A stretch of 64,000 nt of DNA from Planctomyces sp. (GTDB lineage Bacteria; Planctomycetota; Planctomycetia; Planctomycetales; Planctomycetaceae), in the NCBI GenBank assembly GCA_016795105.1, contig JAEUIH010000017.1, positions 1 through 64,000 of the forward strand, given 5' to 3'. Both the position numbers and the translations under genes were made by a program. Of the stretch, positions 53,296-64,000 are shown one piece after another (position 1 is the first letter of the stretch; each line of letters starts with the position of its first letter). A model generated the notes under the pieces. It was not told the DNA's origin, ran no database searches, and saw only the letters and a program-made list of their open reading frames with translations.

Positions 53296-53447
53296 GGCCT
53301 TCTTCAACGTGTGTTCCGCAGTGGTCATAGCCTCCTGCGTCGAACTCTGAAGCTTACGTTCCTCGGCACTCTTGATTCTTTACACCTTGCCGGTGTTGCG
53401 CTCATGCAATGATGCGCTTCGCTGACTCTCTGGATTTGGGGTTTTCC

Positions 53448-54377
53448 ATGATCTTCTCAACACACCGAAACGCGTCGCGTTTACGCGGTTTTACTCTGAT
53501 CGAACTTCTCGTTGTTATCGCCATCATTGCGATCCTGATCGCCTTACTCCTCCCCGCAGTGCAGCAGGCCCGCGAGGCCGCCCGCAGAACTCAGTGTCGA
53601 AACAATCTGAAGCAGATCGGACTCGCCCTTCACAACTACCACGATACCTTCAACACAATGCCTCCGGGCTGGATTGCAGTCGATGACACAGGGATGCCAA
53701 GCGCCCACGAAGGCACTAGTGGAATTGGTTGGGGCGCAATGATCCTGCCCTATATGGAGCAAAAGAACCTCTGGGAACGCTTTGACCCAAATTATTCCAT
53801 CGCCGACCCAGTCAATGCAGCGTTCATTTCATCGCTGGTCCCGGGCTATCGATGCCCGTCCGATCCTCAGCCTGATTACTTTGATATTCATGAAGAAGGG
53901 GGCGGCGCTGTGCTGGCTCGACTTCCAATCGCCAACTACATCGGATCCTTTGGTACCGAAGAACTTGATGGCTGCGAAAACACGCCTGGTGATCTTCCTG
54001 TCATGGCCAACGGTCAGTGTAAAGGAGATGGAGTGTTTTATCACCTCAGCAAAGTCAATCTGCGGGATATCACAGATGGAACATCCAACACGTTTATGGT
54101 TGGTGAGCGGAAGACGCTTGTCGCACTTGGCTGGTATTCAACATGGCCCGGAATGGTCCCTGAGGGAGAAGAAGCATTTCAGCGAGTTTGTGGATCCGCT
54201 GACCACCCACCGAATCACCCGGCCAACCATTTCGATGACTTCAGCAGCCGACATACGGGCGGAGCCAACTTTTGTCTGGGAGATGGTTCCGTGCGATTCA
54301 TCTCGGAAAATATTGATCAGGGGATTTACCAGAGCCTCGCCACAATTCAGGGTGGCGAAGTAGTGGGTGAATTCTGA
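53448..54377 (+). CDS. DUF1559 protein with type IV pilin-like N-terminus (second copy)
   Basis: 309 residues from the ATG at 53448, which places the prepilin cleavage motif ([19 protein letters not shown]) at residues 15-33; the in-frame ATG at 53409 would give an unusually long leader. DUF1559 blocks [20 protein letters not shown] and [17 protein letters not shown] are intact, with several Cys in the central region. Its 3' end overlaps the convergent MMPL exporter gene by 31 bp. Confidence 0.92.
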
Positions 54378-56713
54378 TCGTTACTGGTTCCGGCTGACTC
54401 CTGCTTCTGCTCAATCATCTGCTTTTGTTCAAACCTTCTTCCGAACGGTGAAAGAAGTAGTGCGGGCAGAAGCAGGAGGTCTCCCAACAGAGCCGACGCA
54501 AGCAAACCCACCATCATCACCGCGAATCGACTTGTCGGTGCAAAGTCGCTCCCTGCAAATACCAGCAGCCCAAGTGAGCAGGTGACGGATGTCTGAATCA
54601 TTGCTCGACCACAGTGTCGGTATGAAAATAATACTGCTTCATACCGTGTCATTCCGGACGCCAGCGATCTCCTGAAGAACGTAAGGAAGTGCAGAGTATC
54701 GTCGACGGCGATTCCGAGGGCGACGCTGGCCGTCATGACGGATCCAATATCCATCGGAGCATCTGCCCAGCCCATAATCCCAAACATCAGTACGATCGGA
54801 AAAATATTCGACATCATTGCCAGGAGCCCGTTTAGCACTCCGGCCTCCACAACGGTCATTGTGATCGTAATGACAATAAGTGCAGAGATCATGCTGTCAA
54901 ACAAATCCAGCAGCAGCTGTCGCTGGATCTGGTGCACAAGCGGCATGACTCCGGTTGTGGAAATCCTGAGCCCCTCAATCGGACGATCATTGGCCCCCAG
55001 CGAAACGGGCCGAACGGCTTCTTCAACACTATTGAGCAATACACCATAGTCAATCGGCTCGATGGCACTGCACCGGGCGGTCAGCCTCCACGTTTCAATC
55101 GAATCCCCGTTCTTCAGAAATCCTGCCGTCTCCAGGACAGGTCGAATTCGGCGAACGGCCTGATTGACAGCCGCAATTTTCAACCGCTCAGGCATTCCGT
55201 TCATTGGCGGTAGCTCAGGAAAGAACGTCAACGCCGATGTGGAAGCAGACACGTTCTTTACAGAATGCACAGCTTTGTCAACCTGATGCAATCGCTCCAT
55301 TCGTTGTCGGTCACTCAGTCGACACGACTCGTCGAACGTAATCAGCACTTCGATGGGCACCAAATGCCCGATTCTCGCTTCAAGCCATCGATAGTCATCC
55401 AGCAGACGATGATCACTTTTGAAGAGAGTCTCAATGCGCACTGAGGCAGTCAGATTTGGAAGCCCCGCGGCACCGGCTAACATCAGCCCGAACAGAGTGG
55501 TCAGTGACAACAGATTTCTTTGACTCAGAAAACTGCAGAGGTGATACCATCCATCTTTCTGGTTCTCCTCCACAACCGCTGGCATCGTCGATTCGGGGGA
55601 CGTTCTCCTCAATGGAAACATCAGCAACCCGCAGGGTATTACGGTCAGCACCGATGCAGCCGTCAGACACACACCCACCGTCGAATACACGCCAAACAAA
55701 CGAATTGGCTCCAGGCCGCTGACCATCAGTGAAGCAGTGCCCATCGCCGTCGTCGCTGCGGACAGAGTACACGGAAGCCACCCATCGTGAAAACAGTGAA
55801 TCGCCGCTTCCTGAGGTGACCTGGTTGCGAGGGCCTCAAAGTAATAGTTCGCCAGATGTATCCCGCCAGCGACTGCAATTACCTGAATCAGGGGCGGAAT
55901 AATAATCAATAACGCACTCAGAGTTTCACCGCTGAAGTGAATAATCGCAAGCGTCGTGCCCTGACAGAAAAGTGCAGTACCAAACACCAGCAATGCTCCG
56001 CGGAATGATCGAAGAGATATCCAGCAGATTACGAAAATGACGATTCCCGACGGACCCGCCCATGTCGAAAGTGAACTCTGGCTGGCCTCGTCAACTGTCA
56101 GCCCGTCTATCACCGGTCCGGCAAGATGTATCTCCGATTCATCGATACTGAAACACAACACGATCGCTCGTCGGATGAGATGAACGACGTGTGCTCGTTC
56201 CGCCAGGCCCTCTCGAGTGAACATCAGGATGACACATGTCGAAGAACCATCGCGGCCAACCTGAGTTCCCATTAAACGGCGGATCGCGGCTTCCCGCGAA
56301 ATCAAAGGTCGCTGAGCCCCCTGAATGACGTTTTCGTCTTCTGATGCCGTCCCGTCAGCAGGTCCAGCACTCGTCATTGACAGCAAAGTTCTCCGGCCAC
56401 AAATCACGGAGTGAAAATATGGTTTCCCGTCTGCTCGGCGAAATATTGCTGCCGTTTCAAACGCGTGCACGAGCTTATCAAGTCGTTCGTCTTCAACTCG
56501 ACACTCGTCCCAGCCTGCGATGACGGCGTCTCCGGGACCAAACAACTCCGTAAAATGGTCATAGTCGGCGCGAGCACTGAACTCCGGCCCCACCCAGTCA
56601 ATTGGAGAATTATTGTTGGCTCGCAAAGCCATTGCTGCCCCATAGACAATAAACGGCAGCAACAGCAGACCGTATGCAGCAAGGAGACGGATGCGAGCGT
56701 AAGTGTTCAGCAT
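54347..56713 (-). CDS. MMPL/RND-family membrane exporter
   Basis: 788 residues with about 12 membrane helices in two halves. N-terminal helix ([18 protein letters not shown]) followed by a periplasmic domain (about 35-215), then helices with the RND/MMPL pattern ([41 protein letters not shown]), a second periplasmic domain and helices ending in [25 protein letters not shown] proteins export lipids such as mycobacterial glycolipids and hopanoids. The TGA of the NnrU/ICMT-like gene abuts its ATG. In this setting a lipid-exporter role is the best inference. Confidence 0.87.
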
Positions 56714-57538
56714 TCACGCAGCCAATCGGGGTTGATCCGACTCATTCATCGTGTCAATGACATTCAACTCGCCGTCTTTCGAAACTTCCATACCCTCAGA
56801 ACGCGACTTCGGAAAAACGAATATCGGATAGCCCGGCACTCTCCCCCGATAGTTGCGATATGAATCCCCGAGAAAAAACTCCAGCCGTTCGTCTTTTAGC
56901 CAGCTGCCGATAAAAATGTAGACTGTCCAGACGCCCGTCAGTACAGCATGGTCCAAAGTCATGGTTGGCACAAACCAGATTAATCCAAGAAAGCTCAGAT
57001 AAATCGGATGCCTGAACCAGCGATAAAGAGATCGTTCTTCAAACTCGCGACGAGGAAGTCGTTTTCCGTTCCACCAATATAGCCATGGAGTGAGTCCCGT
57101 CTGATACCCCAGTCCACTCAGGTACAAACTGTAAAACAACATCACCCACGAGCCATAGAATCCGCAGAGGATAAACGTCTTACCCGTCGCAGTTAAATCC
57201 CAGACAAGTGTTGATGTCGTTTGCCAGCACTGAAACAACAGATGGAGACTTCCACAGGTCACAAGACAGAATACAAGTCCATAGAACTCGGACGGTATCC
57301 ATCGTTTCAGCCGTCGACTCACGGCCGGATGAAGCATCAGGCTGTGCGGGATCGCAAACTGAAACGCGAGCAACATGTCGATTGCCAGCCAGTCAGTACT
57401 CTCCTGAATTCCCCCGAATCTGAGGAATTCAAACAACGAAACGACTGTAATTGCGAAGCATGCCTGAGTCCCCAGTCCAAAAATCAATCCCGGAAGTCGC
57501 CTTAGATCACCGAGGCTTTTCCGCAACAAAACAGCCAT
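56714..57538 (-). CDS. NnrU/ICMT-like integral membrane methyltransferase-family protein
   Basis: 274 residues with six or seven hydrophobic helices. The C-terminal half has RHPIYLSFLGLIWF and KDERLEFFLGDSYRNYRGRVPGYP, the RHP and Glu-Tyr patterns of the isoprenylcysteine/phospholipid methyltransferase group, which includes SrsB of the Streptomyces griseus phenolic-lipid set. The N-terminal half resembles NnrU-type proteins. A methyl donor-dependent modification of a membrane lipid is plausible. It overlaps the upstream SAM-methyltransferase gene by 32 bp and abuts the exporter gene. Confidence 0.75.
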   Translation of the reverse strand: MAVLLRKSLGDLRRLPGLIFGLGTQACFAITVVSLFEFLRFGGIQESTDWLAIDMLLAFQFAIPHSLMLHPAVSRRLKRWIPSEFYGLVFCLVTCGSLHLLFQCWQTTSTLVWDLTATGKTFILCGFYGSWVMLFYSLYLSGLGYQTGLTPWLYWWNGKRLPRREFEERSLYRWFRHPIYLSFLGLIWFVPTMTLDHAVLTGVWTVYIFIGSWLKDERLEFFLGDSYRNYRGRVPGYPIFVFPKSRSEGMEVSKDGELNVIDTMNESDQPRLAA

Positions 57539-58343
57539 ACCGCATAGACCTTGTGTTATAGGCGTCGAGGATCGTCTGGAAACGATCGAGAAAAATCAGC
57601 TGCCCTCGATCAATCAGCTTCGCAATCGGGCGAACCGACAGTCGATCAACTCTGTCCCGGCAAATCTCCCATGTTCTTGATACCTGATCCGTCCAGTCGA
57701 GCGTCTTCTGCATCTTCAGACCCGCGTCAGCGAGCCAGCCCTCGTAATCGTTCATCGTTCCCAGCGATGGACAGAAAAAGCCTTCACATACGTCATAGAC
57801 TCGCTGGCGTCCCACTTCATCGAGAGGCTCATCACCTGCCAGCCATGCACAGATTGCGACTCGACCTCCAGGACGAAGCCATCCCGACATACGTCTGAAA
57901 AAAGCTGGCTTATCAAACAGGTGTTCTGTGCATTCAATACTCCATGCCACGTCAAAGCTCTCAGGACTGAATTCAACTTTTTCTGCATCTTCGCAAATGA
58001 ATCGGGTCTTCTTCTTTGTGCCGTTAAGCCAGGAACTCGTTGTCGCCCATCGCTGCTGAAACGGACTGAGTGTCACTCCGGTCACCTGACAATTGTGATG
58101 TCGGGCAAGATGAATCGAAGACCCACCCATTCCACACCCAATATCGACAACCTGATCGCCGTCTCTGACACCCGCTTCGCGAATGACGCGTTCCGTCAAC
58201 TGACGTGCCGCGACCTTTGGTGACTCGTCAGCTGACCAGAGCCCGTGATGGATGTGCTGCCCCCACAGGACGCGGTAAAACAGTGTTGAAACGTTGTAGT
58301 GATTGCGAATGACTCGCTTCTCTACGGAAGGACAGGATATCAT
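57507..58343 (-). CDS. SAM-dependent methyltransferase (tocopherol/cyclopropane-like)
   Basis: 278 residues, soluble. The SAM-binding motif is VVDIGCGMGGSSIHLARHHNC, with later SFDVAWSIECTEHLFDKPAFFRR and LRPGGRVAICAWLAGDEP. It resembles gamma-tocopherol and related small-molecule methyltransferases, including the N-terminal HYNVSTLFYRVLWGQHIHHGLW region typical of that group. The ATG at 58343 lies 39 bp after the YceI stop. A methyl acceptor such as a quinol or phenolic lipid is inference from its neighbours. Confidence 0.85.
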   Translation of the reverse strand: MISCPSVEKRVIRNHYNVSTLFYRVLWGQHIHHGLWSADESPKVAARQLTERVIREAGVRDGDQVVDIGCGMGGSSIHLARHHNCQVTGVTLSPFQQRWATTSSWLNGTKKKTRFICEDAEKVEFSPESFDVAWSIECTEHLFDKPAFFRRMSGWLRPGGRVAICAWLAGDEPLDEVGRQRVYDVCEGFFCPSLGTMNDYEGWLADAGLKMQKTLDWTDQVSRTWEICRDRVDRLSVRPIAKLIDRGQLIFLDRFQTILDAYNTRSMRYGCFVAEKPR

Positions 58344-58382: not shown

Positions 58383-59072
58383 TTACTTTGATGCTTCAAA
58401 AACAATGTCGCCGTAGACGCGAAGCTGATTTGCGACGCCAACGGCCCCAAAAGCCTTCTTGAATGGCGTTATACCGAAGTTCGTCTGCAGAAGATTGAAG
58501 TTCCCTTTCAATCGCTTCGTACCATCCTGCTCGGCCATCTCGGCCTCGAATTTCAAAGTTCGACTGACGCCTCGCAACGAAAACTCGCCACTCAACTCAT
58601 ACAGAGGATTTCCTTTGGGACTCTCTTTCGAAAGTTGGCGACAGGAATCGATCTTAAAGGTTGCCGTTGGGTACTTGCGCACATAGAGGATCGAATCCGC
58701 TTTCATGTTTGTATTCACCTGCTGCCGAGTAGATGCGTCCGTGGTACCTCCGAGCCCAACGTATCGACGAGCCTTCGCGGTGTCCGCATCAAACGAAGAC
58801 ATGTCGAATACGAATTCCCCGGCCCCCTGGTCTCCTTCTGCCAAATCCAGGTGCCCACTCTTCAGCTTGCCCTCGATTCCATGATCATGTCCCAATCCCG
58901 TCTTTCCCACGAAGATATATACCCGACTGGTCTCAACATTGACCTGAAGTCCGGATTCACTCTTCTCCGCTCGCGGTGAGTTCTCGTCGTTCACCGTCTC
59001 TGACGAAATCTGAGACAAAACGAATCCACTGCTCAGCCAAAACACAAGCCCCAAAAACACGCCTGATTTCAT
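58383..59072 (-). CDS. YceI-family lipid-binding protein
   Basis: 229 residues with a signal peptide (MKSGVFLGLVFWLSSGFVLS). YceI beta-barrel features: GLQVNVETSRVYIFVGKTGLGHDHGIEG, FVFDMSSFDADTAKARRYVG, YELSGEFSLRGVSRTLKFEAEM and NFGITPFKKAFGAVGVANQLRVYGDIVFEA. Members bind polyisoprenoid or other amphipathic lipids in the periplasm. Its ATG is preceded by AAGGGAG (59082-59088 on the minus strand). It is the first gene of the leftward operon and is divergent from the BlaI-like gene. Confidence 0.9.
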   Translation of the reverse strand: MKSGVFLGLVFWLSSGFVLSQISSETVNDENSPRAEKSESGLQVNVETSRVYIFVGKTGLGHDHGIEGKLKSGHLDLAEGDQGAGEFVFDMSSFDADTAKARRYVGLGGTTDASTRQQVNTNMKADSILYVRKYPTATFKIDSCRQLSKESPKGNPLYELSGEFSLRGVSRTLKFEAEMAEQDGTKRLKGNFNLLQTNFGITPFKKAFGAVGVANQLRVYGDIVFEASK

Positions 59073-59288
59073 TTGTCCGTACTCCCTTAAAACCTCGAGC
59101 CATCCTGAAGAGTGTCAATACCGGGAACGGCTCCAATTCGGAGGATCAGCAGATTTCAGTCAGTTCGCTCTTGACCATCTTCCGAAGAATCACGACCATC
59201 CGTGGGGAAGAAATACTATAAATGTCGTTTTTATGTCGAGACCGATTTTCGCGATTTCCGCGAATGGCGAACAAGTCCGAGGTGCAGA
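59073..59288. promoter_or_regulatory. Divergent control region between YceI and BlaI operons
   Basis: Both operons start here. The word GACCATC recurs at 59173-59179 and 59194-59200 (21 bp apart, two helical turns). ATACTATAAAT at 59213-59223 is a possible -10 for the rightward operon without a good -35. A 17 bp dyad TTCGCG-5-CGCGAA lies at 59248-59264, just before the BlaI ribosome site. These are candidate operators; the classical BlaI operator word was not recognised. Confidence 0.5.
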
Positions 59289-59663
59289 GTGAAGGAATAT
59301 CGACTGACTCGATATGAGTTACAGCTAATGGACGTTCTCTGGAATCTCGGAGAAGCAACCGTTCAGGATGTCTGTGACCGTATTGAACGTGACCTTGCTT
59401 ACACCACCGTGATGACCACTCTGAATTTGCTCGTCACAAAGAAAAACGTGCTTTCCAGGACAAAACGTGGTCGTGCATTCGTTTATACACCTTTGGTGTC
59501 GAGAAACGAAGTTTCGCGTTCTATCCTGTCTGATCTGAAGGCAGTGCTGTTCGGAAATCAACTTCCAACGATGATGTTGAGCCTGATGGATGATTCGGAG
59601 ATTTCGGCTCAGGACAGCGAGGTTCTCAAGGAGGCGATCCAGAGGCTGGAGAAGAATCAGTGA
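59289..59663 (+). CDS. BlaI/MecI-family transcriptional repressor
   Basis: 124 residues from the GTG at 59289, chosen because GAGGT lies 5 bases upstream and the size then fits the family; the frame extends to a GTG at 59202. The winged-helix part has RYELQLMDVLWNLGEATVQDVCDRIERDLAYTTVMTTLNLLVTKKNVLSRTKRGRAFVYTPLVSR, followed by a dimerisation helix. BlaI is cleaved when its M56 protease partner senses stress, which releases target promoters. The gene overlaps the M56 gene by 4 bp. Confidence 0.88.
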   Translation: MKEYRLTRYELQLMDVLWNLGEATVQDVCDRIERDLAYTTVMTTLNLLVTKKNVLSRTKRGRAFVYTPLVSRNEVSRSILSDLKAVLFGNQLPTMMLSLMDDSEISAQDSEVLKEAIQRLEKNQ

Positions 59664-60775
59664 CATTCGCGTTTGCTGAATTCTGGGTTTCAATGACCCT
59701 CCAGTGCACTTTGCTGTTGTCACTGGTTGCATGGCTTTCGCGTCGCGAAACAAATTCAGTGATTCGTGATCACCTCTGGTCGTCCTGCTATCTGTTGATC
59801 CTTGTCTTGTGGACGATTGGATTCCTCTTTCCGCACCTCAGACTGTTGCCAGACCCGGACCTGCTGAGCCTGAACAAGCCGGTGGCTGGCGTGGAGGTCC
59901 TGGAACGAATTCTGCAGCTCATCGGAATTGTATGGGTCGCTGGAGTTGCACTATTGTCCATCGGCCTCGTCATTTCACTGCTCCAGACATCGCAGATTGT
60001 CAGGAAGTCATCTCCCTGGAACAGTGGGATCGAAGACTGTGAAGTTTGTCTTCGGGAGTTCGGCGTTGAGACTCGAACAACTCCTCTGGCTCTGGTTCCC
60101 TTTTGCTGGCAATTCCATCGGCCAATCATTGTGATTCCACAATGTATGCTCGATTATCCTGAATCGGAACTGCGAGCCATTCTCCGGCATGAACTTGGTC
60201 ATCTTGTTTCACGTCACCCCTTCCAGCTCTTTCTTCAACGGCTGGCTGAAATACTCTTCTGGTACCTGCCATATATGTGGAAGTGCTCTGAAATGGCGGC
60301 GATGCAGCGAGAGCTTGTTGCCGACGCATGGGCAGTTCGAAATAAAGAAGATGCAGGTGCTTTGCTTCAGGGCCTCCTGCGTCTCTCCGAGCAACCAATG
60401 GGTAAAACACCTCGAATGCCCTCCGGACTCAGTTTCGCAGGCCATGGAAGTCTGCTTCAGCACCGTGTCGATTCACTTCTGCGCCTTGTGTCTGCAAGAC
60501 CTGCGAAATCCTCAAGAGCCGGTCGCAGCTTGATTCTGCTGTGTATTGCAGCGATCGGCCTAGGAATCATCTGGCTGCCAGTGAATCCCTATGCCAGCCA
60601 CAGATCACTCGTCTCCCCATGGCCAAAGGTCTCCGCATCAGCCCTGAAAGGAATGGGGATCTCAGTCAGAGACTTCGAAATCGACAACCACCGATTACAT
60701 GAACATCCTCACTCAACAAACAGCACACCAAAGTCATTACCGTCCAACGGTCTGAATCAAAGGACCGCATTTTGA
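59660..60775 (+). CDS. M56 (BlaR1-like) membrane metalloprotease without sensor domain
   Basis: 371 residues starting at a GTG that overlaps the BlaI stop. Four hydrophobic helices (about 12-30, 40-60, 85-108 and near the C-terminus 285-305) flank a cytoplasmic zinc-protease loop with HELGH at 177-181 and the downstream Glu in [11 protein letters not shown]. BlaR1 of staphylococci has an additional penicillin-binding sensor domain of about 250 residues; that is absent here, so the signal is probably not a direct beta-lactam. It should cleave the BlaI-like repressor. Overlaps the next gene by 4 bp. Confidence 0.88.
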
Positions 60776-61689
60776 TCGCCTCGTCAGAAAAATCGGCCAA
60801 AATCGCCAGAAATGGGTCGAACCGATATCAGCTCATGGATTCTCGAAACCGCTATGGGATGACAGTCCTGGAGTTACTGGTCGTCATTGGGATCGTGACT
60901 TTGCTGCTCGCCCTGGTACTGCCTGCTGTACAGAGTGCTCGTGAAAGCGCGAGACGCCTGCATTGCACCAACAACCTGCGACAAATTGGACTTGCTCTGC
61001 ATCAGTCACACGACCTGAACACTAGACTGCCGCCTGGCTGGACTGAATCCAAAACAACTCAAACAGCATGGGCATGGACAACCGTTATTCTTCCTCATAT
61101 CGAACAGTCCGGGGTCTATGAATCGATTGACCATACCAGGGGTATCGATGCCGAAGCTCATGCTGAAATCCGAAAGACTCCCCTGGCAATGATGATCTGC
61201 CCCTCTGACCTCGTTCCTCCGTCGTTCTCACTGTACGCAGCTGCTCAGGATGATGAAGTTCACAGCGTTCAACCATCAGAGCCGTCCGTACTTGTTGAAC
61301 TGCCGTCAGCGAACTACGTTGGCATCTTTGGAAACACGGATCCGGATGCAGTGGACGGACATTCGGGAAATGGTACTTTTCTTGAAAACGATGGACTCGG
61401 CTGGAAAGACCTGACCCAGGGTTTAAGCCACGTGATGATTGTAAGTGAGCGAACTGCCAGAAAGCTGCCTTCAACATGGCTCGGTGTCCGTCAGGATGGT
61501 GAGGATGCAGAAGCCAGAATGACTGGTCATGCATGGCTTGGACCCAACCGACAAGACGCTGACGAATGTGAACTCGACAGCCGGCATGCAGACCTGATTA
61601 ATGTCCTTTTTGCTGATGGCCATGTGGAAGCCGTGTCCGACGCGGTAGACCAGACTGTCTATCGACGGATGGCTCGAAGAAACGAATAA
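60772..61689 (+). CDS. DUF1559 protein inside the BlaI/BlaR1 operon
   Basis: 305 residues from a TTG that overlaps the M56 stop (TTGA); an ATG at 60835 gives an 8-residue prepilin leader and is an equally good start. The prepilin motif is [24 protein letters not shown], less standard than the other two copies, followed by [23 protein letters not shown] and a C-terminal [14 protein letters not shown]. It is unusual to find a pseudopilin-like protein between a repressor-protease pair and biosynthetic enzymes. It precedes the methyltransferase gene by 4 bp. Confidence 0.88.
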
Positions 61690-61693
61690 TACT

Positions 61694-62407
61694 ATGCGTC
61701 TATCCGTACGGAGGCGCCAGCCTGAACTCATGGATGACCCGGCTCTCGACAGAGCAACCCATCAGCAGGCCCTGGCCGGTCTGCGGCGTGTAAACTGGTG
61801 GAGCAGGACCGATTCCGTGATCTGGAATGCTCTGAAAACAGTTCAGCCGAAGGCAACTGGTGAACCTCTTCGAATACTCGATGTCGGTTCCGGAGGTGGC
61901 GACCTTCTGTGCAGGCTCGCCGGCAGATTTGCAGGACACGAGATACCGGCCGTCTTCACGGGCTGGGATATCAGTCTCGATGCCGTGCAGTACGCCACTG
62001 AACAGGCACGGATCGCTGGTGTCAAAAACGTCAGTTTTGAAGTCCACGATTGCCTGAATGAGACGTTCCCGGAACAGAAGTTTGACGTGGTTATGTGCTC
62101 GTTATTTCTCCATCATCTTGATGAGCACGATGCAGTATCCCTCCTGAACGGAATGCGGCTCGCTGCCAGCCAGCTTGTGCTCGTTGATGACCTTGTTCGC
62201 TCAAAGTTTGGCTATTGGCTGGCATGGGCAGGATGTCGCATACTTACGCGGTGCCGTATCGTTCACATCGACGGTCCGCTTTCGGTAGAAGGTGCCTTCA
62301 CGACGGCCGAAGCACTCAAAATTGCAGACTACGCGCGCCTTTCGCCGTGCAGAATCACTCGCCACTGGCCACAGAGGTTCTTGCTCCAGTGGAGTCGAGC
62401 AAACTGA
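61694..62407 (+). CDS. SAM-dependent methyltransferase of the type III PKS cluster
   Basis: 237 residues. After a short N-terminal QPELMDDPALDRATHQQALAGLRRVN block comes a class I methyltransferase with ILDVGSGGGDLLCRLAGRF (motif I), FTGWDISLDAVQYA and VVMCSLFLHHLDEHDAVSLL. The C-terminal part (YWLAWAGCRILTRCRIVH) is hydrophobic, suggesting membrane association or a lipid substrate. The TGA overlaps the ATG of the FAD oxidoreductase. A methyl transfer onto a phenolic lipid is inferred from the neighbours. Confidence 0.83.
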   Translation: MRLSVRRRQPELMDDPALDRATHQQALAGLRRVNWWSRTDSVIWNALKTVQPKATGEPLRILDVGSGGGDLLCRLAGRFAGHEIPAVFTGWDISLDAVQYATEQARIAGVKNVSFEVHDCLNETFPEQKFDVVMCSLFLHHLDEHDAVSLLNGMRLAASQLVLVDDLVRSKFGYWLAWAGCRILTRCRIVHIDGPLSVEGAFTTAEALKIADYARLSPCRITRHWPQRFLLQWSRAN

Positions 62408-63621
62408 TGACTGAGTCCAACTTTGCACGGGTAGAGAATGAGTCCGACTGGGACGTCGTGATTGTCGGAGCCGGTCCAGCCGGAGGATACTCGGGCTTGC
62501 TTTGCGCCAGATCCGGCCTTCGCACATTGCTCGTTGAAAAACAGAAATTCCCTCGCCACAAGATCTGCGGCTGCTGCCTGAACAGCAGAGCTGTTGGATT
62601 CCTGAAAGATGCAGGCATCTGGTCCGGAATACTCACTGCTGGCGCTCGCAGACTTGACGGCATCACAATCAGTGTGCGACATCAGAAGTTAGTCGTACCT
62701 CTCAGAGAATCATGGTCCATCTCTCGCGGGACGCTCGATCAGCTCCTTGTCAGACAGGCAGTCGAAGCAGGGTGTGTATTTGTCGATGGAGTATCCGCGC
62801 AGGTCGCGGGTCCAATGACAAATAGTGGGCAGAGCCTTCGCAGAATCAAAGTCGGTACGCGGGAAGTTCAGGCCCGAGTTGTACTGGTCTGCGACGGTCT
62901 CGGTCACTCCAGCCTTGATTCACAATCGCAACTGACAACAAGGATCATGCACGGTTCCAGAGTTGGACTCGGAGGAATTCTTAGTCCGGTTGATGACTCA
63001 CCTTCAGACCAATCGGACTCGAAGCAAATTCAAGCCAATACAAGCCGGAATGAGTTCATCCGCATGATTGTTGGGAATCATGGGTATGCGGGCCTGGCGC
63101 CGCTGGAAGATGGAAGACTGAACGTAGCGGCAGCTGTTGACCCGGAGTTCCTTAAGTCCATGAACTCCCCTGCTGTCGCGTTACTCAGTCTGTTCGAAGA
63201 GGCCGGCGAACTGCCCCCCAATGGAATGGCTGCAATGGCTCTCAGAGGAACTCGGCCCCTGACTCAAAATACAAGTCCACGATCCCTTGACCGGCTGCTT
63301 CTGCTCGGAGATGCAGCAGGGTACGTAGAACCGTTCACCGGCGAAGGAATCGCATGGGCGCTTGCCTCTGCTTCACTTGCTTTGCCTGCAGCTCTTGACG
63401 TGTGTCGCAACGGCTGGAGTCGTGCAGCAGCTCTTGCGTGGGAACGTGCATATTGTCGTTCAATCTCCAGGAAACTTGGAATTTGTCGGCTGCTCTCTTC
63501 AGGTCTGCGAAGACCATGGATGCTTCAGCCTATGATCACTTTCTTTCGCATGTTTCCGTCAGCAACTGGAATGCTTGCTGCAACTGTAAATGGCTATACG
63601 TCACAAAAGGACGCAGCATAA
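62407..63621 (+). CDS. FAD-dependent oxidoreductase (geranylgeranyl reductase/hydroxylase-like)
   Basis: 404 residues from the ATG at 62407, which overlaps the previous stop (TGATG). FAD-binding VVIVGAGPAGGYSGLLCARSG at about 18-38, the second motif KFPRHKICGCCLNSRAVG, and the ribityl-binding LLLGDAAGYVEPFTGEGIAWALASA. This is the UbiH/geranylgeranyl-reductase superfamily, whose members hydroxylate aromatic rings or reduce prenyl chains. Alongside a type III PKS it most likely oxidises the phenolic product. No gap separates it from the PKS gene. The longer frame from 62215 is not supported. Confidence 0.87.
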   Translation: MTESNFARVENESDWDVVIVGAGPAGGYSGLLCARSGLRTLLVEKQKFPRHKICGCCLNSRAVGFLKDAGIWSGILTAGARRLDGITISVRHQKLVVPLRESWSISRGTLDQLLVRQAVEAGCVFVDGVSAQVAGPMTNSGQSLRRIKVGTREVQARVVLVCDGLGHSSLDSQSQLTTRIMHGSRVGLGGILSPVDDSPSDQSDSKQIQANTSRNEFIRMIVGNHGYAGLAPLEDGRLNVAAAVDPEFLKSMNSPAVALLSLFEEAGELPPNGMAAMALRGTRPLTQNTSPRSLDRLLLLGDAAGYVEPFTGEGIAWALASASLALPAALDVCRNGWSRAAALAWERAYCRSISRKLGICRLLSSGLRRPWMLQPMITFFRMFPSATGMLAATVNGYTSQKDAA

Positions 63622-64000
63622 ATGTCTCATTTTGAAATCATCGGGTTGGGTACCGCCCTCCCGGATCACTCAATCGAACAGGCGGACGCCGCGACCTTCG
63701 CCGGGACCTGTCTTTCAGGAGAAGCCGATTCAGACAGAGCAGAAACTCTGGTAAAAGCGCTCTATCGGAGGTCGGGAGTTCGATCCCGAAACAGCGTCGT
63801 ATTGGATTCTTCGACACATCGAGATGCGATTTCTCAGTCGTTCTATTCCCCGTCCGACGATCCATCGAATCGAGGCCCCGGGACTGCAGCAAGGATGCAG
63901 AAATTCGAACGTGAGGCTCCAGCGCTGGCGACGAAGGCGTGCCTTCGAGCACTCCAGGCTGCTGAAGTCAGCCCTCAGCAGATTACTCACCTGATCACTG
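63622..64000 (+). CDS. Type III polyketide synthase (chalcone/stilbene synthase family), partial
   Basis: The ATG directly follows the FAD gene stop, with AAAGGACG nine bases upstream, and the frame is open to the right edge (126 codons). It begins MSHFEIIGLGTALPDHSIEQ, contains LVKALYRRSGVRSRNSVVLD and ends in helical text (ATKACLRALQAAEVSPQQITHLIT), the pattern of the thiolase-fold N-terminus of type III PKS or KAS III proteins. The opening and the RRSGVR region fit type III PKS better. The catalytic Cys, His and Asn lie beyond the window, so the assignment rests on this N-terminal third and its neighbours. Confidence 0.72.
   Translation, partial: MSHFEIIGLGTALPDHSIEQADAATFAGTCLSGEADSDRAETLVKALYRRSGVRSRNSVVLDSSTHRDAISQSFYSPSDDPSNRGPGTAARMQKFEREAPALATKACLRALQAAEVSPQQITHLIT

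Follow-up and report, generated by a model that had tools for sequence, protein, structure and literature searches.

Organization of the locus

The window analysed here is a 64,000-nucleotide stretch (C88:1-64000) of an 8.9-Mb Planctomyces genome (G000), and the system under study is a compact gene cluster near its right-hand end in which a BlaI-type repressor and an M56 membrane metalloprotease adjoin the genes of a putative alkylresorcinol-type lipid pathway. Six genes run rightwards on the forward strand in the order BlaI, M56, DUF1559, methyltransferase (MT), flavin adenine dinucleotide (FAD)-dependent oxidoreductase and type III polyketide synthase (PKS). The repressor (59289-59663) begins with GTG, belongs to the BlaI/MecI/CopY family (Pfam PF03965, 98.6 bits) and is 65% and 57% identical to its counterparts in two related loci, L016 and L036. 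It overlaps the M56 gene (59660-60775; 371 amino acids, HELGH motif, PF05569 61.3 bits) by 4 bp (GTGA), which in turn overlaps the DUF1559 gene (60772-61689; PF07596, 154 bits) by 4 bp (TTGA), given a TTG start for DUF1559. An alternative ATG at 60835 would leave a gap of 59 bp after M56. The M56/DUF1559 overlap of 4 bp is also found in L016 (TTGA) and L036 (ATGA).

The MT gene (61694-62407) begins 4 bp past DUF1559, the gene for the geranylgeranyl-reductase-like FAD-dependent enzyme (62407-63621) shares 1 bp with it (TGATG), and PKS starts directly at 63622; MT and the FAD enzyme were assigned from Pfam/NCBIfam. Only the 5' part of PKS lies in the window (63622-64000) and this truncated part gave no family match in the Pfam/NCBIfam scan. 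The full-length protein has 374 amino acids, its gene extends to contig position 64746, beyond which the next listed open reading frame is convergent. A preliminary description of this DNA had proposed a single tightly packed operon and all of the junctions, read from the sequence, agree with it. A sigma-70 and terminator scan gave counts lower than the shuffle means. The closest named relative at the locus is a Fuerstiella metagenome-assembled genome record (L016; PKS identity 60%), the contig of which is also present in G001, a genome placed in the window's genus.

A second, divergent operon, also closely packed, lies to the left of BlaI on the reverse strand. It consists of genes for a YceI-like lipid-binding protein (58383-59072; PF04264, 59 bits), a CMAS-like methyltransferase (57507-58343; Pfam), an MddA/NnrU-like membrane protein (56714-57538; 104 bits to NCBIfam MddA, below the cut-off of that model) and an MMPL/RND-type exporter (54347-56713; PF03176, 73 bits). 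The last three also co-occur with the cluster elsewhere. A predicted BlaI operator, the palindrome ACTATA-AA-TGTCGT (59215-59228), lies in the YceI-BlaI intergenic region at a position kept in relatives, where a box also precedes YceI. The divergent operon, which the preliminary description had not included, belongs to the system and shares its predicted operator region.

The order MT-FAD-PKS, with PKS last, is that of an operon shown to yield alkylresorcinols (Milke et al. 2024, PMC10896814) and related to the cyanobacterial hidABC genes. We infer that the product at this locus is likewise of the alkylresorcinol type. In the published account the genes adjoining the operon are kept only in close relatives, and in 'Saltatorellus ferox' a gene for a lipid/isoprenoid-binding protein lies inside it. 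A term search of the main text of that paper found no mention of BlaI, M56, DUF1559, a repressor or a regulator, whereas here both BlaI-M56-DUF1559 and YceI-CMAS-MddA-MMPL recur alongside the same three genes in several families.

A short M56 protease and its DUF1559 partner

The genome contains 12 BlaI and 12 M56 matches, which occur in pairs. The M56 protein of the window is the shortest of the twelve; the other eleven range from 794 to at least 2856 amino acids. Its profile matches the solved BlaR1 structure (8exp; E=1.1e-10). The match is confined to residues 99-298 of the 602 in BlaR1, and none to the penicillin-binding sensor was found in this comparison, in line with the lack of this sensor stated in the preliminary description. 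Against the BlaR1 family model the protein scores 40.9 bits, below the cut-off of 400, and the approximately 195 residues that follow its HExxH motif have no Pfam match. In a tree of 44 rows, 40 short M56 proteins fall on one side of a branch and four large ones on the other (support 100/99), although long branches may distort this split. From this tree, the short M56 proteins without the sensor form one clade.

The short-M56 sample comprises 41 loci after removal of a duplicate (L131) and of repeat views. All 41 proteins were observed to carry SPWP followed by D[FY] past the last predicted helix, and in 33 of the 41 the latter motif reads RD[FY]. SPWP was found in one of 12 large M56 proteins. 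In the window the tail spans 27 residues (60614-60694) and is probably located outside the cell membrane. It is also kept in the few short M56 proteins that have no DUF1559 gene nearby.

A DUF1559 partner was defined as a gene on the same strand, within 600 bp, that scores at least 250 bits against a profile built from four sequences (the window protein, whole and in part, L016 and L036). Such a partner, from one subfamily, was found in 31 of the 41 loci, and in four further loci a DUF1559 gene lies upstream of MT in the same cluster (35/41 in total). The six others are L126-L128, which come from one genus, L142, and two loci cut by contig ends (L140 and L236). The window locus has both the SPWP...D[FY] tail and an adjoining DUF1559 gene of the same subfamily. 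By comparison, no DUF1559 gene occurs within 1 kb of any of 12 large M56 genes (11 from the same genome and L220). The genome has 55 DUF1559 matches, and therefore closeness by chance is estimated at a percent or two. We conclude from these neighbourhoods, beyond the preliminary description, that M56 proteins of this subfamily usually have DUF1559 as their partner.

The partnership is also reflected in the divergence of the three proteins. Over 30 complete modules the distance-matrix correlations are 0.94 (M56-DUF1559), 0.90 (M56-BlaI) and 0.85 (DUF1559-BlaI), values reached in none of 2000 permutations and to which shared descent contributes. In addition, a large M56 protein of 917 amino acids at C321 (L251:5324-8077) has a suggestive C-terminal DUF1559 domain fused to it (residues 712-853, 104 bits), and relatives that align over nearly its whole length (L292-L302) occur in families f1, f2, f5 and f11. 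The N-terminus of the window's DUF1559 protein is pilin-like, with a geopilin match at E=6e-8. Structure models, each predicted from three sequences, were mediocre for M56 (pLDDT 57) and unusable for DUF1559 (pLDDT 36). From the neighbourhoods, the correlations and the fusion, DUF1559 probably supplies the missing outside part of the short M56 protein. A second DUF1559 gene of the window (53409-54377), just past the MMPL gene, is not related to the module by position.

Rhodopirellula baltica has 74 DUF1559 proteins and Planctopirus limnophila has 68, for which no known function is given (PMC2754498, PMC10632474). The portions of these two papers that were available contain no link between DUF1559 and BlaI.

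Linkage of the switch and the lipid cluster

Two sets of loci were compared, 80 named loci and 81 genome loci, with 14 loci common to both; the latter set was picked by hand, mostly on longer contigs. Because both come from best PKS matches, the following counts of lipid blocks and BlaI genes are not population frequencies. A lipid block, defined as at least two of YceI, CMAS, MddA and MMPL within 9 kb of PKS, is present in 14/80 named and 17/81 genome loci, and BlaI lies within 9 kb of PKS in 2/80 and 8/81 respectively. Seven of the eight BlaI-linked genome loci are among the 17 with a lipid block and one is among the other 64. The linkage exceeds chance, for which the expectation of BlaI near PKS is about 3% (an estimate from 12 BlaI genes in 8.9 Mb). 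Four of the seven belong to one genus, g39, which may be Gimesia.

Of 397 genomes, 39 encode an M56 protein closely related to that of the window (E <=1e-22, at most five candidates scored per genome). It lies within 8 kb of PKS in at least G000, G001, G149, G152, G178, G388, G172, G224 and G355, which represent families f1, f11 and f13, and G320 is consistent with the same linkage but is split over contigs. The gene order was observed to vary. The window, L016 and L036 have YceI divergent from BlaI-M56-DUF1559-MT-FAD-PKS, while in g39 the order is DUF1559-MT-FAD-PKS, then MMPL to YceI, then BlaI-M56 (L134, L135, L136 and L139 with L245, L259, L261 and L260). In L162 a single co-directed row, YceI-MT-FAD-PKS-CMAS-MddA-MMPL, has the module behind it, and two further arrangements are found in f11 (L200 and L201). 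Judged by these arrangements, the link of BlaI-M56 to PKS is not a local accident. The tie between a BlaI/M56 switch and the type III PKS pathway seen in the preliminary description is thus borne out in other genomes. The gene orders, the conservation of which it suggested checking, differ between these loci, and relatives do not keep the tight DUF1559-MT spacing (66 bp in L016 and 98 bp in L036).

The predicted BlaI operator

A 14-bp palindrome, ACTAYA-NN-TRTMGT, is present in all three intergenic regions compared (window, L016 and L036), with an extra TGTCG half-site downstream. In the window it forms a TACA-N2-TGTA-like palindrome of the BlaI/CopY class at a predicted autoregulated promoter. 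Over 3.63 Mb of loci, a symmetric regular expression matched 30 times, and 21 of these matches lie near the start of YceI, BlaI or MT; three of these 21 are repeat views, and loci L266-L290 were fetched using a related pattern.

Boxes from these loci, 14 in all, were used to train a matrix for scoring gene starts, and a score of at least 9 counted as a box. In 15 loci with both a lipid block and BlaI, the box was found at YceI in 14/15, at BlaI in 12/15 and at MT in 6 of the 10 seen, and MT has it in all four of the additional g39 views, which are separate stretches. The internal genes of the block served as controls and had none (CMAS 0/14, MMPL 0/11). Where the lipid block occurs with no BlaI in the locus, the box was observed at YceI in 7/21 and at MT in 7/22, against 0/22 for CMAS and 0/14 for MMPL (duplicates included). 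For PKS loci lacking a lipid block it precedes MT in 5/104, among which L131, L259 and L260 are other views of block-bearing loci. By our reading of the scores, the box heads the PKS-bearing transcription unit in 13 of 14 loci with a visible head, despite the differing gene order, the exception being L200. It is weak in L201 (12.8), stands before YceI in L162, and the head is not visible in L140. Among 1579 other gene starts, 32 score at least 9, six at least 12 and four at least 15. These four all adjoin short-M56 modules: one is a gene beside the L236 short M56, and the others are the cargo gene in L240-L242.

In L036 a second box (L036:8085-8098) lies directly upstream of MT within the co-directed operon, which suggests an extra BlaI-controlled promoter. 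The preliminary description had named an internal promoter that uncouples the biosynthetic genes as evidence against its reading. Such a promoter may be partly realised in L036 and in several g39 loci, where a box stands right before MT; the box is of the same BlaI type, however, and control of the biosynthetic genes would thus remain with one repressor.

No genome-wide enrichment of the box was found, as there are 35 + 31 matches by strand with at most one mismatch against 148 + 152 for the reversed pattern, and two-mismatch matches within the window are at chance level. The case for this predicted operator rests on where the boxes lie and on their conservation, not on how many there are. Just two other places in the genome match the pattern with no mismatch, L266 (C10:5655) and L268 (C353:14806).

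Possible regulation in trans and other cargo

Twelve genomes with a lipid block and no BlaI beside it, all assumed to be within the draw of 397 genomes, were compared for regulation in trans. Three of them (G382, G055 and G018) have a clade-A short M56 elsewhere, and in each the box is found at YceI and MT, with scores of 11.8 to 13.0. Of the nine with no clade-A short M56 (G384, G373, G028, G044, G269, G361, G003, G082 and G141), a single genome has it, G082, at MT (12.3); G141 has a clade-B module. Two of the three boxed clade-A genomes belong to one genus, g53, and the modules of this genus (L126-L128) keep only one half-site before BlaI.

Away from the lipid cluster the module adjoins GT2-PMT fusion proteins (L130, L132, L133, L137, L227 and L235), membrane sulfatase-family proteins that we read as LtaS-like (L141, L230 and L240-L242), PAP2 phosphatases and an EPSP-synthase-family (MurA-like) enzyme. 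Some of the GT2-PMT and sulfatase-family loci carry an upstream box. As an example, the GT2-PMT genes of L130, L132 and L133 have one box in common with BlaI. L240-L242 carry a cargo gene with 74% identity to the sulfatase-family gene found in L141. In L126 (6673-9460; also L127 and L128), BlaI and the short M56 are followed directly by the MurA-like gene in place of DUF1559. From its neighbours, the same kind of switch adjoins other envelope genes, a feature outside the preliminary description, and this mostly envelope-related cargo fits an envelope signal.

Proposed mechanism and alternatives

We propose that two operons of an alkylresorcinol-type lipid cluster are governed by one BlaI switch, with M56 removing BlaI and DUF1559 as the probable outside part, and we assign this reading a probability of about 0.6. 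Regulation of the cluster by the switch is well supported by comparison of the loci, which directly shows the operon, the module, the positions of the predicted operator and the lack of a sensor. The steps of repression, protease activation and BlaI removal are taken over from BlaI-BlaR1 (PMC7593790), and by this analogy we infer that BlaI is bound and cleaved here in the same manner. BlaI would bind the palindrome at 59215-59228 and repress both YceI-CMAS-MddA-MMPL and BlaI-M56-DUF1559-MT-FAD-PKS. The short M56, activated from outside, would remove BlaI, and lipid synthesis and export would then be switched on together, giving a methylated, oxidised alkylresorcinol that is made and exported jointly. 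DUF1559 may act as an outside sensor or co-sensor in trans, perhaps docked on the conserved tail of M56. The signal could plausibly come from the wall or membrane and is probably an envelope perturbation, not a beta-lactam. A wider version, in which BlaR1 signalling is split into three parts, with a pilin-like DUF1559 sensing the outside for a sensorless M56, and runs the remodelling of the outer envelope through alkylresorcinol, sulfatase-fold (LtaS-like) and glycosyltransferase genes alike, is put forward tentatively, with somewhat less than even odds.

Several observations weigh against the proposal. Ten of the 17 genome loci with a lipid block have no BlaI beside the cluster, and the g39 loci L154, L156, L157 and L158 keep BlaI and the box by YceI with no M56 found beside them. 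L200 has both the module and the cluster with no box. In loci classed as modules outside the cluster, a set that includes the 11 large-M56 pairs, a box at a score of 9 is missing from 34 of 40 BlaI starts and from 22 of 25 DUF1559 starts. The matrix evidence is partly circular because the training boxes come from these loci. Short M56 genes occur with no DUF1559 nearby in L126-L128 and L142. DUF1559 is abundant and is also present in other long proteins of this genome, and the M56-DUF1559 fusion at C321 is therefore suggestive only.

The role of DUF1559 can be read in another way, with BlaI and M56 controlling the cluster, M56 sensing the membrane through its helices and tail, and DUF1559 being an output or substrate, such as an envelope pseudopilin made under stress. 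This would agree with the retention of the tail in all short M56 proteins, including those with no DUF1559 nearby, and with the published finding that DUF1559 genes of Rhodopirellula baltica respond to salt, cold and heat (PMC2754498). However, DUF1559 accompanies the module even where the cargo is different, a pattern more in keeping with a component than with an output, and its fusion to a large M56 also argues for a component; we consider the output role unlikely. There is a far smaller chance that the module and the lipid cluster are neighbours with no regulatory link, a mobile stress module having settled there. Many clusters lack the module, and the module is also found with other cargo, but the linkage recurs in several families and YceI and MT starts carry the box even where BlaI sits elsewhere in the genome. 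Neighbourhood by mere chance was rejected on two grounds: module and cluster stay side by side in several families despite different gene orders, and the box stands at operon heads.

A beta-lactam response, in which the switch acts as a penicillin sensor of the Staphylococcus kind and phenolic lipids alter wall permeability, appears the most improbable of all. Family membership of BlaI and M56 would favour it, as would the MurA-like gene after the short M56 of L126 and a gene for a beta-lactamase-family serine hydrolase beside that of L142. Beta-lactam sensing by the M56 protein of the window was nevertheless rejected because the sensor domain is absent. The penicillin link raised in the preliminary description is not supported and is further weakened by a PKS deletion in Stieleria maiorica that left ampicillin resistance unchanged (PMC10896814), a comparison limited by the shorter operon of that strain, in which the switch was not looked for.

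The proposed regulation bears on the alkylresorcinols of planctomycetes, the role of which is described as open (PMC10896814), because the predicted operator and regulon indicate when these lipids should be made and with which exporter. The steady partnership with a signalling protease makes one DUF1559 subfamily testable. If true, the split-switch reading would assign a definite function to one member of a protein family that ranks among the largest unexplained ones of planctomycetes. The locus also points to BlaI/M56 signalling in use with no beta-lactam sensor.

Relation to known systems

The locus resembles BlaI-BlaR1 and MecI-MecR1 in having a gene for a BlaI-family winged-helix repressor that overlaps the gene for a membrane M56 protease with HExxH, in the alignment of the M56 region to BlaR1 (8exp) and in the TACA/TGTA-type geometry of the predicted operator. 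It differs in the SPWP tail that takes the place of the penicillin-binding sensor, in the separate DUF1559 partner and in a cargo of lipid synthesis and export with no beta-lactamase. We describe it as BlaI-BlaR1-like but not as a strict BlaR1 system, since a test for the C-terminal sensor domain showed that the protein lacks it. In the open-access literature searched, in which papers on BlaI in planctomycetes were not gone through, we found neither the module of three genes nor its operator nor its association with the lipid cluster.

The copper repressor CopY, with the operator RNYKACANNYGTMRNY (PMC7253601), belongs to the same repressor superfamily and has a palindrome of the same size and spacing. 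In contrast to CopY, the repressor here is paired with an M56 protease, and it scores 57.5 bits against the CopY/TcrY model, which requires 121.95. The BlaI regulons described for Clostridium thermocellum (PMC8457756) differ in the arrangement of the half-sites, and the parts of that paper available mention no DUF1559 or lipid cluster. Their half-sites, GACTAT/GTCTAT, resemble the ACTAT half-site found here, and in them, too, there is autoregulation and BlaI shares an operon with BlaR1 and further genes.

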